DNA from: a virus
DNA: 26,478 nt
Strand: one strand, 5' to 3'
Virus record (IMG/VR): IMGVR_UViG_3300020056_001159
Location: 1 to 26,478 of that record
Positions 15,753-23,491 of this stretch are shown in pieces (position 1 is the stretch's first letter; the number at the start of each line of letters is the position of its first letter). The notes beneath the pieces were generated by a model that was given only the letters and a program-made list of their open reading frames with translations, had not been told where the DNA came from and searched no databases. Position numbers and translations under genes: made by a program.

Positions 15753-16097
15753 TTAATCTTGCATTGCTTCTAAATCAAAATCTACACTTGTTCCGCATCC
15801 GCAGGCAGACACAGCATTTGGATTTGTAATTTTAAACATTTGTCCAAATATTGCAGTTTCGTAGTCTATTTCTGTTCCCATTAGAAACATTACGCTAGTT
15901 GGATCAACTACTAATTGTCCTTGATTAGCTTTTATTATTTCACTACCTTGCTCTATTTGTTCTTCTGTAATTACGTCCCACTTGTATTCAAAACCTGCGC
16001 AGCCCCCTCCTTTAATACTAAGACTTACTGATTTATTATCTGCTGATAATTCATCAATTTTTTTCTTAGCGTTGTCCGTTAGAGACAGAATAGTCAT
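15753..16097 (-). CDS. A-type Fe-S cluster carrier (IscA/ErpA/HesB family)
   Basis: 114 aa, the normal length for the family. The three conserved cysteines are present: C33 in IKGGGCAGFEYKWD, and C99 and C101 in SACGCGTSVDF. These bind and hand over an Fe-S cluster to target proteins. The N-terminal LTDNAKKKIDEL also fits the family. Homologues are known as auxiliary genes in marine T4-like phages. It lies between the giant fibre gene and the coiled-coil gene, overlapping the latter by 32 nt, with AAGGA about 9 nt before the ATG at 16095-16097. That places it on a late-type transcript, so it may mature a virion or late enzyme, or support host metabolism; the target is unknown. Confidence 0.9.
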   Translation of the reverse strand: MTILSLTDNAKKKIDELSADNKSVSLSIKGGGCAGFEYKWDVITEEQIEQGSEIIKANQGQLVVDPTSVMFLMGTEIDYETAIFGQMFKITNPNAVSACGCGTSVDFDLEAMQD

Positions 16098-16432: not shown

Positions 16433-16993
16433 ATGTTTAAAACTTTCTTATCGACTTTAGCTCTACTCATATTATCCTTTATTTCAGCAAAGCCGGCATA
16501 TGCTGAAAGCATAGAAGAAGCTAAAATGCTTGAACTTATCAATTGGATTATAGACGAATCTGCTATCTACGAATATAACGATGAGCCATTGCCGAAAATT
16601 GTTTATGCTACACAAGAGCAATTAGGTGCTTACTTTTATGGTCTAGATACTTACTTAGAAAATGAAGACAAGCTATTTCCTATAGAAGGCATTTTTAGAA
16701 GTGCTGAAGAAGGAACAATATTTTTATTAGACGATTTTGATTGGGAAAGTGGGTCTACAATGGATGTTGTAGTACATGAACTTGTACATTATCTGCAATA
16801 TATTAATGGTCGTACATTTTCGTGTAGCGTGGCAGGCGAAATAGATGCATATAAGTTTCAATCAATTTGGCTAATGAAAAACCCAATTCCTAATAGACAA
16901 GAACCTACTTTTTTAACTGCTGTCTACATAATAGAAACATGCATAGCAGAAACTTTGAGAAATTCTAATTTAGATGAAACTCCGCCTAAATAA
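16433..16993 (+). CDS. Predicted secreted zinc metalloprotease-like protein (HExxH)
   Basis: The only plus-strand gene. 186 aa with a clear signal peptide: MFKTF, hydrophobic core LSTLALLILSFIS, and a cleavage site AYA|ES after residue 24. A zincin motif HELVH lies at 115-119 within MDVVVHELVHYLQYING, and E136 in GEIDAYKFQ, 17 residues on, is a plausible third zinc ligand as in gluzincin-like families. Two cysteines (C131, C170) could form a disulphide in the periplasm. Family placement is uncertain; it may belong to a domain of unknown function. No Shine-Dalgarno is seen before ATG 16433. The gene is divergent from the fibre operon and its end overlaps the uvdE end by 8 nt, tail to tail. Confidence 0.75.
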   Translation: MFKTFLSTLALLILSFISAKPAYAESIEEAKMLELINWIIDESAIYEYNDEPLPKIVYATQEQLGAYFYGLDTYLENEDKLFPIEGIFRSAEEGTIFLLDDFDWESGSTMDVVVHELVHYLQYINGRTFSCSVAGEIDAYKFQSIWLMKNPIPNRQEPTFLTAVYIIETCIAETLRNSNLDETPPK

Positions 16994-18011
16994 GCGCAAC
17001 AAGATCCTCAACAGCTAGATTTTTCATCTTGCTCTCGCACATGATATCTGCGTGTTCTAAGAATGTTAATGCCCATTTATTGCACGCAGTATTTTTGTAG
17101 TAATCACTGTGTGCACGAAGCTTTTGCTTTTTGTAACCTTGCTCCATAAGCAGTTGCAAATTTGGCAGCGTATTTGTATCAATAGACTCTATGTATTCTT
17201 CGCGACTGACACTGTAGTGAATAGCAGGACGTTGACCACGCCAACTGTCGAACACACGTTTTACCCGGTCGTCGTTGACTTGAATGTATTCACCGTTACT
17301 GCGAATGTAATGATGGTGAATGTCAAGCACAAGCGCAACATGTTTCTCAAGTTCTAATGATGCATCAAGACCCCACGAGTTTTCGTCGTTCTCGATAGTG
17401 ATACAGTTTCTAGCTTCGGGTGACATACGTGACAGTGCTTTAATAATACCTGCAGGACCTTGCCGACCGGAAATGTGTACGTTGCACTTGAAGTCTTGCC
17501 ACTGTTGACCGTAGCCCATCCAACGTGCCATGTTGATGTGATACTCAAACTCGTCGACGCTGCGATCAACAATGTCAGGATTGTCACTAGCAAGTACAGT
17601 AAACTGACCAGGATGCATAGACAAACGCACATCAAGCTTGCGAGCAAGTTCGCCTACCTTAGCAAACTCACGCTCACAGTAGGCGATCACGTCGGGCTTC
17701 TGCCAGTAGTAACGCCAATCGTCTTGCGTGTACACAGGCAAGCAATCACTGCCAAGGCGTACCATACGATACACAGGATCACGATTACCTACGTACCAAA
17801 TCAAGTTGTGGTATGATTTTATGTTGTGGACCATGATGTCCCACAGACGCTGTTCGGCTACTTCGCGAGTCTGCCGATTAAGCCACGCAACAGTTGTGGA
17901 CTTGGTATTGAAGGGACGCTGAATTTCTTCAAGCTCTTTTTTCTTAAGCGATTGATCAGAATGCATGTACTTACATGCGAAACCTATACGTTGTTTGGTA
18001 TTGTCGAACAT
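16986..18011 (-). CDS. uvdE: UV damage endonuclease (UvdE/UVDE family)
   Basis: 341 aa from the ATG at 18009-18011. The TIM-barrel UVDE family is recognised by RIGFACKYM at the N-terminus, RLSMHPGQFTVLASDN (H133), CITIENDENSWG (E207), LVLDIHHHYI (D230, H232, H233), H265 and RAHSDYY (H301, D303), the metal-coordinating set. The enzyme nicks DNA immediately 5' of UV photoproducts and some other lesions, starting an alternative excision pathway, and takes the role played by DenV in T4. Longer frames from a TTG at 18047 or an ATG at 18038 are disfavoured because the promoter lies there. The ATG sits only 6 nt after TATAAT, so the mRNA may be leaderless. It converges on the protease gene. Confidence 0.92.
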   Translation of the reverse strand: MFDNTKQRIGFACKYMHSDQSLKKKELEEIQRPFNTKSTTVAWLNRQTREVAEQRLWDIMVHNIKSYHNLIWYVGNRDPVYRMVRLGSDCLPVYTQDDWRYYWQKPDVIAYCEREFAKVGELARKLDVRLSMHPGQFTVLASDNPDIVDRSVDEFEYHINMARWMGYGQQWQDFKCNVHISGRQGPAGIIKALSRMSPEARNCITIENDENSWGLDASLELEKHVALVLDIHHHYIRSNGEYIQVNDDRVKRVFDSWRGQRPAIHYSVSREEYIESIDTNTLPNLQLLMEQGYKKQKLRAHSDYYKNTACNKWALTFLEHADIMCESKMKNLAVEDLVALI

Positions 18012-18017
18012 TATGCT

Positions 18018-18047
18018 ATTATACAAGTGTATCCTCATAATGGTCAA
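18018..18047 (-). promoter_or_regulatory. Sigma70-type promoter for uvdE
   Basis: Minus-strand TTGACC (18042-18047), 18-nt spacer and perfect TATAAT (18018-18023). The -10 ends 6 nt before the uvdE ATG, so transcription would start at or next to the start codon. The element lies inside the 3' end of the 62-aa gene. Confidence 0.75.
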
Positions 18048-18645: not shown

Positions 18646-19411
18646 CCACAAAAGGATCTTTACAATTTGAAGGATTGGGATCACCGTGAAACACAGTAAT
18701 ACAACAGTCTTTAGGAGGCACTACATTTTCAATTGTTTTAAATGTCCTATTTCCAACTTTACCGCCGTCGGCCCATTGTCTAGAAGATCTTATTTCCCAC
18801 TTCCAACTTTTGATCCATTCGTCGGGAAACAATGTAGCTTTTTTGTTTTGTTGTGCCCAATAAAAAATGTAATCTTGATCACCTCTAAAGCGTCGTTGAA
18901 TGTCAGTTTGACCCATTGTAAAATCTTGCCATAATTTGTCTAAACTGCCAGCAGTGAATTTTATTACACTGCTGTTATACTTTTCCCAAGCCTTATTTTG
19001 ATTACGTAAAAAGTCTCTAATAATAGCCCAATTATCATCAGCATATAAAAACAATTTATCAATGTTATTCGCAATCACAACATCTAAATCCATGTAAAGT
19101 ATTTGACCTTGTATATCTAATTTGTTAGAAAACATATACATCTTTGCCCACCATCCAGCAACATTTTGAGGCAATGACTTTACTTGAATATTTTTGTCTA
19201 AACCAGCACTGTCATCAGTCAAGCAGTAAAAATTAAAATCTAGTGTACAGTGCCTTTTACACATGTTGTAAAGTATATTCACATATTCGGTTGAATATTT
19301 TTTACCATGCTTTACACAGACAATATTATAGTTTGTTTTTTCTGCTTTCACACTTCGCTTTAATAACCGATATTCTTCTTTTGTGTACTGTGGTCGGTTT
19401 ATTTTAGCCAT
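18629..19411 (-). CDS. Glycosyltransferase, GT-A fold (GT8-like)
   Basis: 260 aa. A GT-A type DxD motif is visible as D108-L-D110 in [20 protein letters not shown], preceded by FNFYCLTDD (about 59-67) and followed by [11 protein letters not shown] and a late [10 protein letters not shown] segment, the usual second metal-binding HG motif of retaining GT8-like enzymes. Such enzymes transfer sugar from a nucleotide sugar to an acceptor; in phages, acceptors can be DNA bases, virion proteins or host glycans, and nothing here picks one. Its ATG overlaps the end of clpP by 8 nt, so the two are co-translated from the clpP promoter. It could work with the sugar-nucleotide genes at 23967-25492. Confidence 0.82.
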
Positions 19412-19994
19412 GTCTTTTTTCAGCGATTTTATCTGCTAGACCATAATCAATTGCTTGCTGTGCAGTCATAAAATTATCACGATCCATGTCACGCTCAAAA
19501 TCTTCATAGGTTTTTCTTGCAGTATTATGCTTCACATACAATTCAGTTAGCATCTTTTTCATGTAGGTAATTTCTTTGTATTGGATTTCAATATCACTTT
19601 GCTGACCACGTGCTCCGCCGCTTGGCTGATGGATCATTGTACGACTGTGAGGCAACACAAAACGTTTATTAGGTGCACCGGCTTGTGCTAGAAAACTACC
19701 CATTGAGCATGCTTGACCTATAACAATCGTAGAAACATCTGGATTAATAAACTGCATAGTATCATAGATACTCATACCAGCAGTAATCACACCGCCAGGC
19801 GAGTTAATATATAAATGAATATCAGCTGTAGAATCTTCACTTTCGAGGAACAGCATTTGCGATACAATTAAATTTGCTGAATGATCTTCAACAGGACCAT
19901 TTAACATTATAATACGATCTTTAAGGAGTCTGCTGTAAATGTCGTATGCACGTTCACCGCGGCCGGATTGTTCAATTACTGTAGGTATTAGCAT
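19404..19994 (-). CDS. clpP: ATP-dependent Clp protease proteolytic subunit
   Basis: 196 aa, close to cellular ClpP length. The hallmark [19 protein letters not shown] (13-31) is followed by the catalytic triad S97 in [11 protein letters not shown]122 in MIHQPSGG and D171 in [11 protein letters not shown]; the oxyanion/substrate strand [16 protein letters not shown] is also intact. ClpP forms a double heptamer that degrades unfolded substrates delivered by ClpX or ClpA; no unfoldase is in this window, so it probably uses the host one, perhaps forming mixed rings. It has its own strong sigma70-type promoter (20022-20050), hence probably early expression. About 3 kb away lies a tmRNA with a YALAA-ending tag, the classic ClpXP signal. 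Confidence 0.95.
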
Positions 19995-21318: not shown

Positions 21319-21735
21319 TTATGCCTCGAGTAATTGCTTTGTAGAAATACAATGATTGCCATTATAAAACGTCATTAAGCATTGTTCTACAATATCGTCG
21401 GCACCTGCTATTTGCATGAGGGTGAGGGATGATTGAAGCTTTTGGGCGTCTACCTCGCTGCCCATTATTGTTTCAGCCGACTTGTCAGCATGAGACATCA
21501 AAGCATGGCAACATTCATAATACCTACTTCCTAGGTAAGGATGATTTAGGTAATCAGTTGCGTCGGCTATGCCTCTTAGCCCAAAAAATTTAGCTGTTTC
21601 GCTATGTCCTAGATCTCTTAGCTGAGGAAAAATAAACCAAATCCAATGTGTTGTCTTTTGTCCATTTACGAGCTCGTAAAGAGCAGTTACATATTGTTGT
21701 TCTTGAGCTTGTAGGAATCTGTTAAGTTTGTCCAT
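21319..21735 (-). CDS. DUF1810 family protein
   Basis: 138 aa, matching the usual DUF1810 length and pattern: LNRFLQAQEQQYVTALYELV at the N-terminus, GQKTTHWIWFIFPQLRDLGH (25-44), FFGLRGIADATDYLNHPYLG (50-69) and a C-terminal QCLMTFYNGNHC. The family is widespread in bacteria and has no settled biochemical function. It begins immediately after the 425-aa protein stop and is probably on the transcript from 23043-23071. The conserved HWxWFIFPQL block is intact, so the protein is likely functional. A role in nucleotide or stress metabolism would be a guess. Confidence 0.85.
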   Translation of the reverse strand: MDKLNRFLQAQEQQYVTALYELVNGQKTTHWIWFIFPQLRDLGHSETAKFFGLRGIADATDYLNHPYLGSRYYECCHALMSHADKSAETIMGSEVDAQKLQSSLTLMQIAGADDIVEQCLMTFYNGNHCISTKQLLEA

Positions 21736-23071: not shown

Positions 23072-23079
23072 ATGAAAAT

Positions 23080-23107
23080 GATGGGATTCTGTTCCAAGGT
23101 TCCCATC
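23080..23107 (-). terminator. 3' hairpin of the tmRNA coding piece, possible terminator
   Basis: A 7-bp stem GATGGGA / TCCCATC encloses a 14-nt loop and is followed by ATTTTCATTT. It ends the tmRNA coding piece and could act as a structural 3' end, a weak intrinsic terminator, or both. Confidence 0.55.
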
Positions 23108-23120
23108 GGACCCGTAAAAC

Positions 23121-23165
23121 TTATGCTGCGAGAGCGTAAGCCTTAGGAGCTACATAATTGTTAGC
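23121..23165 (-). other. tmRNA tag-peptide reading frame ANNYVAPKAYALAA
   Basis: From the resume codon GCT (23163-23165) to TAA (23121-23123) the frame encodes ANNYVAPKAYALAA, to which the alanine carried by tmRNA is added in front. The AN- start and the -YALAA end match cellular tags; the terminal ALAA is the degron recognised by ClpX and ClpA. The middle VAPKAY is unlike the tags I remember. The stop lies in a CTTA...TAAG helix, as is common in tmRNAs. Confidence 0.9.
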
Positions 23166-23237
23166 TTTTAGTTTAAGTGATACTTACGGTATCAATCGGT
23201 TTGTCTCCACTTGCTTTCCGCACCAGTCGATCCTAAT

Positions 23238-23375
23238 TCACCCCCTCATAAACACACGAATTAGCAATGGGCCAAAGCGATAACTTTTATAGGGGTCGCC
23301 ACTATTATATCTAAAATCGCCCCACTGAAAAGGTTGTCCCTTAAACCAACTAATCCAGTGCCAATCCCAAGTCAT
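23238..23375 (-). CDS. Possible 45-aa protein encoded inside the tmRNA intervening segment
   Basis: ATG at 23373-23375 with GAGG 6 nt upstream opens a 45-codon frame (MTWDWHWISWFKGQPFQWGD, then FRYNSGDPYKSYRFG, ending PLLIRVFMRG). The TGA at 23238-23240 overlaps the first acceptor strand of the tmRNA coding piece, so the frame fills the intervening segment almost exactly. It is rich in tryptophan (five residues) and ends in a hydrophobic, basic stretch. I do not recognise the family. It may be a real small gene nested in the excised spacer, or chance in a short GC-richer RNA segment. A TATAAT within it (Y-N codons) has only a weak -35. Confidence 0.5.
   Translation of the reverse strand: MTWDWHWISWFKGQPFQWGDFRYNSGDPYKSYRFGPLLIRVFMRG
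23248..23256. repeat. Inverted repeat arm closing the tmRNA intervening segment (coding-piece side)
   Basis: ATAAACACA on the plus strand here is a perfect 9-bp inverted match to 23386-23394. In the transcript it lies two nt before the GGGGGTG acceptor strand, so it would extend the acceptor stem across the intervening segment. Confidence 0.75.
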
Positions 23376-23385
23376 TCTACCCTCA

Positions 23386-23394
23386 TGTGTTTAT
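23386..23394. repeat. Inverted repeat arm closing the tmRNA intervening segment (acceptor side)
   Basis: TGTGTTTAT on the plus strand, starting at the A of CCA in the acceptor piece, pairs perfectly with 23248-23256. The paired arms would bring the two acceptor strands together in the precursor before the spacer is removed. Confidence 0.75.
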
Positions 23395-23463
23395 GGTGGA
23401 GGTGAGGGGATTTGCACCCCTGTCCTGTATACGTTCCGCTCGCTTCATCAACGAACAATGTTA

Positions 23464-23491
23464 TTTATAACATGTTACACAAAGTTGTCAA
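23464..23491 (-). promoter_or_regulatory. Sigma70-type promoter for the tmRNA
   Basis: Minus-strand TTGACA (23486-23491), 16-nt spacer and TATAAA (23464-23469). The expected start at about 23453-23458 coincides with the first paired bases of the acceptor piece. The -35 overlaps the last codons of the SWIM gene. Confidence 0.75.

Follow-up and report, generated by a model that had tools for sequence, protein, structure and literature searches.

In the two-piece tmRNA of Alphaproteobacteria, both pieces are released by tRNA-type enzymes. To our knowledge, the intervening segment (IVS) of a tmRNA gene has hitherto been treated as waste, that is, as a spacer that is normally discarded. Genes of the permuted two-piece type (RF04321/RF01849) run in the order acceptor piece, IVS, coding piece, and resemble the locus described here in this order and in the 7-bp acceptor stem with G3-U70, the CCA end, the T arm, the TAGGATCGAC core, a bulged P2, a tag ending in ALAA and paired IVS ends. 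In bacteria the IVS has a median length of about 30 nt and no protein gene of the sort described here occurs in the IVSs sampled, whereas the IVS of our locus is 148 nt long and encodes a conserved protein. Two-piece tmRNAs are also known from phages and are common in marine ones: Buchholz et al. (PMC9004378) describe that of Melnitz and count 53 among isolate phages, 50 of which are marine or aquatic. Melnitz (MZ577097) and Mosig (MT647606) are, like the phage studied here, T4-like marine phages with a two-piece ssrA, which is annotated in both. The Mosig IVS is short and empty, unlike ours; the Melnitz IVS holds an ORF as ours does, but one of a different family (KIPKYLSGT) that is unannotated, and no mention of an IVS gene was found in the passages of PMC9004378 consulted. 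A protein gene inside a tmRNA gene is shared with a further system, the tmRNA_intron form, in which a group I intron lies in the T loop and sometimes carries a LAGLIDADG nuclease gene (PMC11915505). That form combines a self-splicing intron with a homing nuclease, whereas the IVS considered here would be freed by tRNA-type processing and encodes small proteins not recognisable as nucleases. The open-access literature searched yielded no account of an ORF within a tmRNA IVS, although earlier reports may exist; as judged from that literature, the tmRNA itself is of a known kind and the protein-coding, swappable IVS is new.

The whole stretch of viral DNA that was analysed (26,478 nucleotides; IMG/VR record IMGVR_UViG_3300020056_001159) is referred to below as the window. 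On its minus strand it carries what is, by sequence and model match, a phage-encoded circularly permuted two-piece tmRNA gene of the already known kind. The sequence-only reading had made this identification, and it is borne out by covariation and by the covariance-model and ARAGORN searches that it proposed: cmscan of the window gives a full-length match to RF04321 tmRNA_permuted (1-213/213; 97.1 bits, E 5.3e-18), which confirms the permuted order of acceptor piece, IVS and coding piece, and a match to RF01849 alpha_tmRNA (67.6 bits, E 1.1e-16), and ARAGORN calls a tmRNA* (permuted) with the tag ANNYVAPKAYALAA. The features are as follows.

23464..23491, minus strand: probable promoter of the tmRNA transcript, TTGACA-16-TATAAA (sequence)
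23469-23462, minus strand: T4-type late motif TATAAATA, overlapping the TTGACA-16-TATAAA promoter
23456-~23077, minus strand: permuted two-piece tmRNA gene (cmscan, ARAGORN, covariation)
23394..23456, minus strand: acceptor piece of the tmRNA (RF04321 and RF01849, ARAGORN, T stem and P2 covariation)
23433-23425, minus strand: P2 3' strand CGTATACAG, then GAC, within the acceptor piece
23421-23405, minus strand: T arm AGGGG-TGCAAAT-CCCCT (sequence)
23404-23398, minus strand: acceptor 3' strand CACCTCC (sequence)
23397-23394, minus strand: ACCA end of the acceptor piece (sequence), whose terminus is CACCTCCACCA with its last A at 23394
23393-23246, minus strand: IVS, 148 nt
23380..23384, minus strand: Shine-Dalgarno GAGGG, 4 nt upstream of the ATG of the IVS ORF (sequence)
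23238..23375, minus strand: IVS ORF of 45 aa, MTWDWHWISWFKGQPFQWGDFRYNSGDPYKSYRFGPLLIRVFMRG (homologues in viral loci, pN/pS)
23077..23245, minus strand: coding piece of the tmRNA (RF01849 to 23077, P2 covariation)
23245-23239, minus strand: acceptor 5' strand GGGGGTG, start of the coding piece (sequence)
23240-23238, minus strand: stop TGA of the IVS ORF, 8 nt within the mature coding piece
23226-23219, minus strand: P2 5' strand CTGGTGCG, pairing with CGTATACAG as 3 bp, a bulged A and 5 bp
23165-23121, minus strand: tag reading frame ANNYVAPKAYALAA with its stop, resume codon GCT (ARAGORN)
23107-23080, minus strand: 3' hairpin of the coding piece
19404..19994, minus strand: full-length ClpP protease subunit on the same contig (PF00574, 5e-79)

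The acceptor stem, GGGGGUG/CACCUCC-A-CCA, has 7 bp and is of alanine type, with G3-U70 and an encoded CCA; the coding piece contains GGATCGAC, and its core TAGGATCGAC is followed by CTGGTGCG. All the parts that had been claimed on the minus strand, namely the CCA-ended acceptor, the T arm, GGGGGTG, the TAGGATCGAC signature, the tag frame and G3-U70, are thus present. One correction concerns the 3' hairpin of the coding piece, which reaches ~23077. The spacer between the pieces (23393-23246) had also been seen; the conserved protein-coding ORF inside it had been overlooked.

Conservation was assessed in 345 unique phage tmRNAs among the matches listed, drawn from core-motif scans and from loci with neighbouring or nested genes; families were sampled through a single tmRNA core motif, among the matches listed, and many contigs are fragments. 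The T stem is fully paired in 340 of these 345. The bulged helix that had been proposed as P2 covaries: its first three positions are paired in 278/345, against 115 when partners are shuffled, at least three of the next 4 positions are paired in 297/345, against 152, and the compensatory exchanges seen include U-A, A-U, G-C and C-G. A G-U at acceptor pair 3 is found in all 345 relatives, a set preselected for pairing and GGGG, and pairing statistics for the acceptor stem (P1) were not counted as evidence because the loci had been selected for P1 pairing. The ends of the IVS also pair, with a mean helix of 9.9 bp in 234 phage IVSs (5.7 bp with shuffled partners) and of 12 bp in the window, where TAAACACA... 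and ...TGTGTTTATGA would prolong the acceptor stem in the predicted precursor fold. Upstream, 46% of 347 phage tmRNA genes have TTGACN-N15-19-TATANN at a distance of 40-140 nt from the CCA end (controls 1%), and TATAAATA precedes 55% of them (1% of control regions) at a median distance of 76 nt from the CCA end. The viral tags found mostly end in ALAA, relatives carry tags of the same type, and the tag ANNYVAPKAYALAA, read to its stop, has a hydrophobic C-terminus.

It had been suggested that such a gene is unusual on a T4-like phage and points to the host lineage or to capture of a host gene. The first suggestion does not hold, given the 53 two-piece tmRNAs counted in the isolate-phage survey (PMC9004378), the genes of Mosig and Melnitz, and the hundreds of permuted tmRNAs returned by viral scans (among the matches listed). 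Recent capture from a host is likewise unsupported, because the tmRNAs closest to that of the window are viral, with 91% identity among the matches listed, against 64% for the best of the 113 alphaproteobacterial tmRNAs compared.

The 45-aa ORF within the IVS has homologues in at least 60 viral loci, as found in a search with five family members, and most of these sit in a permuted tmRNA gene, after its CCACCA and ahead of its coding piece. In L208, L226 and L243 the homologue lies outside any tmRNA, the ORF start in L226 and L243 sharing an ATGA with the stop of the gene before it, and in L260 it lies immediately upstream of a tmRNA. Among 30 unique DNA sequences, pN/pS (a figure that pools non-independent pairs) is 0.21 in the ORF frame, against 1.2-1.6 when either of the remaining forward frames is read, and variable columns number 7/13/26 at codon positions 1/2/3. 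Because pN/pS is this low in one forward frame only and the codon positions show this pattern, the ORF is, on comparative sequence evidence, a protein gene under purifying selection; an artefact of ORF-seeking was ruled out by dinucleotide shuffles and frame controls. The family has no match in the isolate phages, bacterial genomes, and Pfam and PHROG profiles searched, DUF6356 (PF19883) included, and is therefore taken to be viral and unnamed. An AlphaFold model of the protein has four strands at modest confidence (pLDDT 70), so that the protein is probably beta-rich, and Foldseek returned no match to this model in the PDB at E<=0.001. Our best guess is that this small protein serves in host takeover or anti-defence, its expression being coupled to the tmRNA transcript.

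The window is one instance of a wider pattern. Amongst 311 unique phage IVSs (of the matches listed), an unbiased set in that its members were picked for the tmRNA core motif regardless of any ORF, 69 reach at least 130 nt. An IVS was scored as ORF-filled when one ORF covered at least 70% of it, and the expectation was taken from dinucleotide shuffles. By this measure 50 of the 69 long IVSs are ORF-filled, against 3.4 expected; the figures are 25/38 against 2.7 for IVSs of 130-179 nt and 25/31 against 0.65 for those of at least 180 nt. In phage IVSs of less than 100 nt, ORFs are not enriched over the shuffles, and the claim is therefore restricted to long IVSs. About a quarter of the long phage IVSs have no obvious ORF, and some of them look like structured RNA. 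In the bacterial control, which consists of Alphaproteobacteria found with one core motif, none of 112 unique IVSs (among the matches listed) reaches 130 nt; an apparent bacterial IVS of 345 nt (L326) stemmed from a mis-called CCA end and was removed under a stricter rule.

Grouping the 82 ORF-bearing IVSs gives 33 families (among the matches listed); chance ORFs may be among the singletons of about 100 nt. Their ORFs range from 24 to 120 aa, and a Shine-Dalgarno-like motif precedes 76% of those with enough upstream sequence (19% when shuffled). In all 13 multi-member families pN/pS is below 0.55, a few of them having very few changes. DUF6356 (PF19883) is matched above the curated cut-off in two families, and the 114-aa IVS ORF of L409 has 43% identity to an ordinary gene near the peptidase M15 of pelagiphage HTVC010P. 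The ssrA IVS of Melnitz, a cultured phage, carries a conserved ORF (MFKWLSKTRLVVITRDYFRERNRKADAKIPKYLSGT...; L684:1069-1210) absent from the annotation of MZ577097, with the peptide sequence MFKWLSKTRLVVITRDYF... and, for its family KIPKYLSGT, a pN/pS of 0.33. Taken at the level of sequence, the IVS of marine phage tmRNAs thus appears to be a swappable slot occupied by many different small protein genes. By analogy with small phage accessory genes, these cargo families may be candidates for host-takeover or anti-defence proteins.

Near-identical IVSs occur in unrelated tmRNAs and different IVSs in near-identical tmRNAs, which shows, at the level of sequence, that IVSs swap between tmRNA genes. 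The IVSs of L003 and L210 are identical at 147/149 nt, and their tmRNA parts are 0.65 alike, at the baseline for unrelated phage tmRNAs (0.62 +/- 0.06); for L206 and L222 the IVS identity is 0.98 and the tmRNA identity 0.58. Conversely, the window and L459 share 69/70 nt of the acceptor piece and the first ~78 nt of the coding piece without a difference, and the L459 IVS differs from that of the window, being 90 nt long and ORF-less; L390 and L444, the tmRNAs of which are also close to that of the window, have a different IVS of 100 nt. Tandem IVS units are found in L239, L246 and L247. The simplest route would be for tmRNA genes to exchange IVSs at their conserved edges, CTCCACCA and GGGG..GAANTAGGATCGAC.

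The reading that we favour, with a probability of roughly 0.85, is that the locus yields a dual-purpose precursor, the source of both a two-piece tmRNA and, from a cargo slot in the IVS, a small protein. Of this, the tmRNA anatomy, the purifying selection on the ORF, the ORF enrichment in long phage IVSs and the swapping of IVSs were computed. Transcription from the upstream promoter would give a single RNA with two jobs. Host tRNA-processing enzymes would cut this precursor, the outer parts becoming the two-piece tmRNA. Together with SmpB of the host, this tmRNA would free ribosomes that have stalled and add ANNYVAPKAYALAA to their nascent peptides, marking them for proteolysis of the ClpXP type. 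The IVS, with its own ribosome-binding site, would give the 45-aa protein, either from the precursor or from the excised segment. Small-protein genes would occupy the loop of the helix that closes the IVS, whole IVSs would be exchanged by recombination through the conserved tmRNA edges, and cargo ORFs would often borrow their stop codon from these edges. SmpB was found in none of 50 related viral records, and SmpB of the host must therefore serve the tmRNA. ClpP is the protease that degrades ssrA-tagged proteins, and the ClpP encoded in the window could be a partner in this degradation; the two co-occur sporadically, with ClpP in 6 of the 50 related records, many of them fragments, and an obligate partnership with the tmRNA was rejected on this count.

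The position of the stop codons bears on how the two jobs might interact. In 37 of the 82 unique ORF-bearing IVSs the stop is the UAG of GAANUAG, 13 nt into the coding piece, and in one, the window, it lies 8 nt into it; the Melnitz ORF stops 42 nt into it. In 25/82 the stop is a UGA one nucleotide before the coding piece, and in the rest it is further inside the IVS. Whenever the RNase P site precedes the stop, as in 38/82 including 21/21 of the window's family, the processed message would be a non-stop one. This might mean that the IVS message loses its stop as the tmRNA matures and that its product is tagged by the same tmRNA, and that translation of the precursor in turn blocks both folding and cleavage, making the ORF a built-in timer or feedback. 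Besides these stops and that of Melnitz, the nucleotides shared by the ORF 3' end and the acceptor stem in the window speak for such a processing switch, but in 44/82 the stop falls within the IVS (in 25 of these a single nucleotide short of its end), so it is not general, and the stops may merely borrow the conserved UGA/UAG of the tmRNA edge. Because the stop precedes the RNase P site in the majority of ORFs, the switch was ranked as a rival and not as the main explanation, and is distinctly unlikely. A combined version, in which the IVS is a cargo exchange slot and, in the window's family, maturation cuts the cargo message before its stop, so that the same transcript gives either cargo protein (as precursor) or a tmRNA that tags and destroys the cargo (once processed), would amount to an RNA-processing switch during infection; we regard it as unlikely.

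The exchange of IVSs might alternatively reflect a selfish mobile element, an IVS module that homes like an intron and whose ORF merely promotes transfer. Near-identical IVSs in unrelated tmRNAs, the tandem units of L239, L246 and L247, and the short repeats that flank the stand-alone copies of L220 and L243 would fit this, but the scans of the ORFs (24-120 aa) revealed no similarity to homing nucleases or transposases (no nuclease by Pfam or PHROG), cmscan found no ribozyme core of an intron family in the window, the many unrelated ORFs in one slot look like passengers rather than a mover, and homologous recombination at the conserved edges suffices; such an element is very improbable. That the tmRNA itself is decaying or has become inactive, a relic around a nested protein that alone matters, is more doubtful still: the ORF persists without a tmRNA in L208, L226 and L243, but the acceptor stem, G3-U70, T arm, P2 and tag frame are intact in the window and covary in hundreds of relatives. 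It is scarcely credible that the ORF is an untranslated by-product of conserved RNA structure, for although the IVS ends form a conserved helix and some IVSs are ORF-less and structured-looking, the codon-position pattern and the pN/pS of 0.21 are confined to one forward frame, homologues stand alone outside any tmRNA, and many unrelated ORFs occur at the same place.

If the IVS does serve phages as a slot that houses protein genes, annotation would be missing many of their small proteins (one of them in the Melnitz isolate) and the tmRNA precursor would double as an mRNA. The dual-purpose precursor would also make two questions testable, namely why phages keep tmRNAs and how tRNA-type processing competes with translation on one RNA.

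Several arrangements were observed besides. In L246 (2890-3440) and L247 (2890-3367), the tandem IVS units consist of the 45-aa ORF followed by a shared, structured-looking segment of ~110 nt that has no Rfam match and terminates in the usual IVS end. L244 (1080-2130) has an acceptor piece and the 45-aa ORF with the coding piece absent; ~700 nt downstream lies another permuted tmRNA, this one complete and with a short IVS. The arrangement is possibly a duplication and decay series. In L220 (2980-3180) the IVS ORF and its leader lie in a different gene context, flanked by the short direct repeat ATGATGGAAACCTA. The ORF-less IVSs of L390, L444 and L459 (90-100 nt), in tmRNAs close to that of the window, look strongly structured and are possibly RNA elements of a new type. 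In Roseobacter phage DSS3P8 (L685:543-976), a GOLLD RNA (150.7 bits) lies directly upstream of a permuted tmRNA that is absent from the annotation. Finally, accessory genes not expected in a T4-like core lie near the tmRNA gene in the window, encoding a UvdE endonuclease, an IscA/HesB-type Fe-S protein and a DUF1810 protein (16986-18047, 15753-16097 and 21319-21735 (-), respectively).
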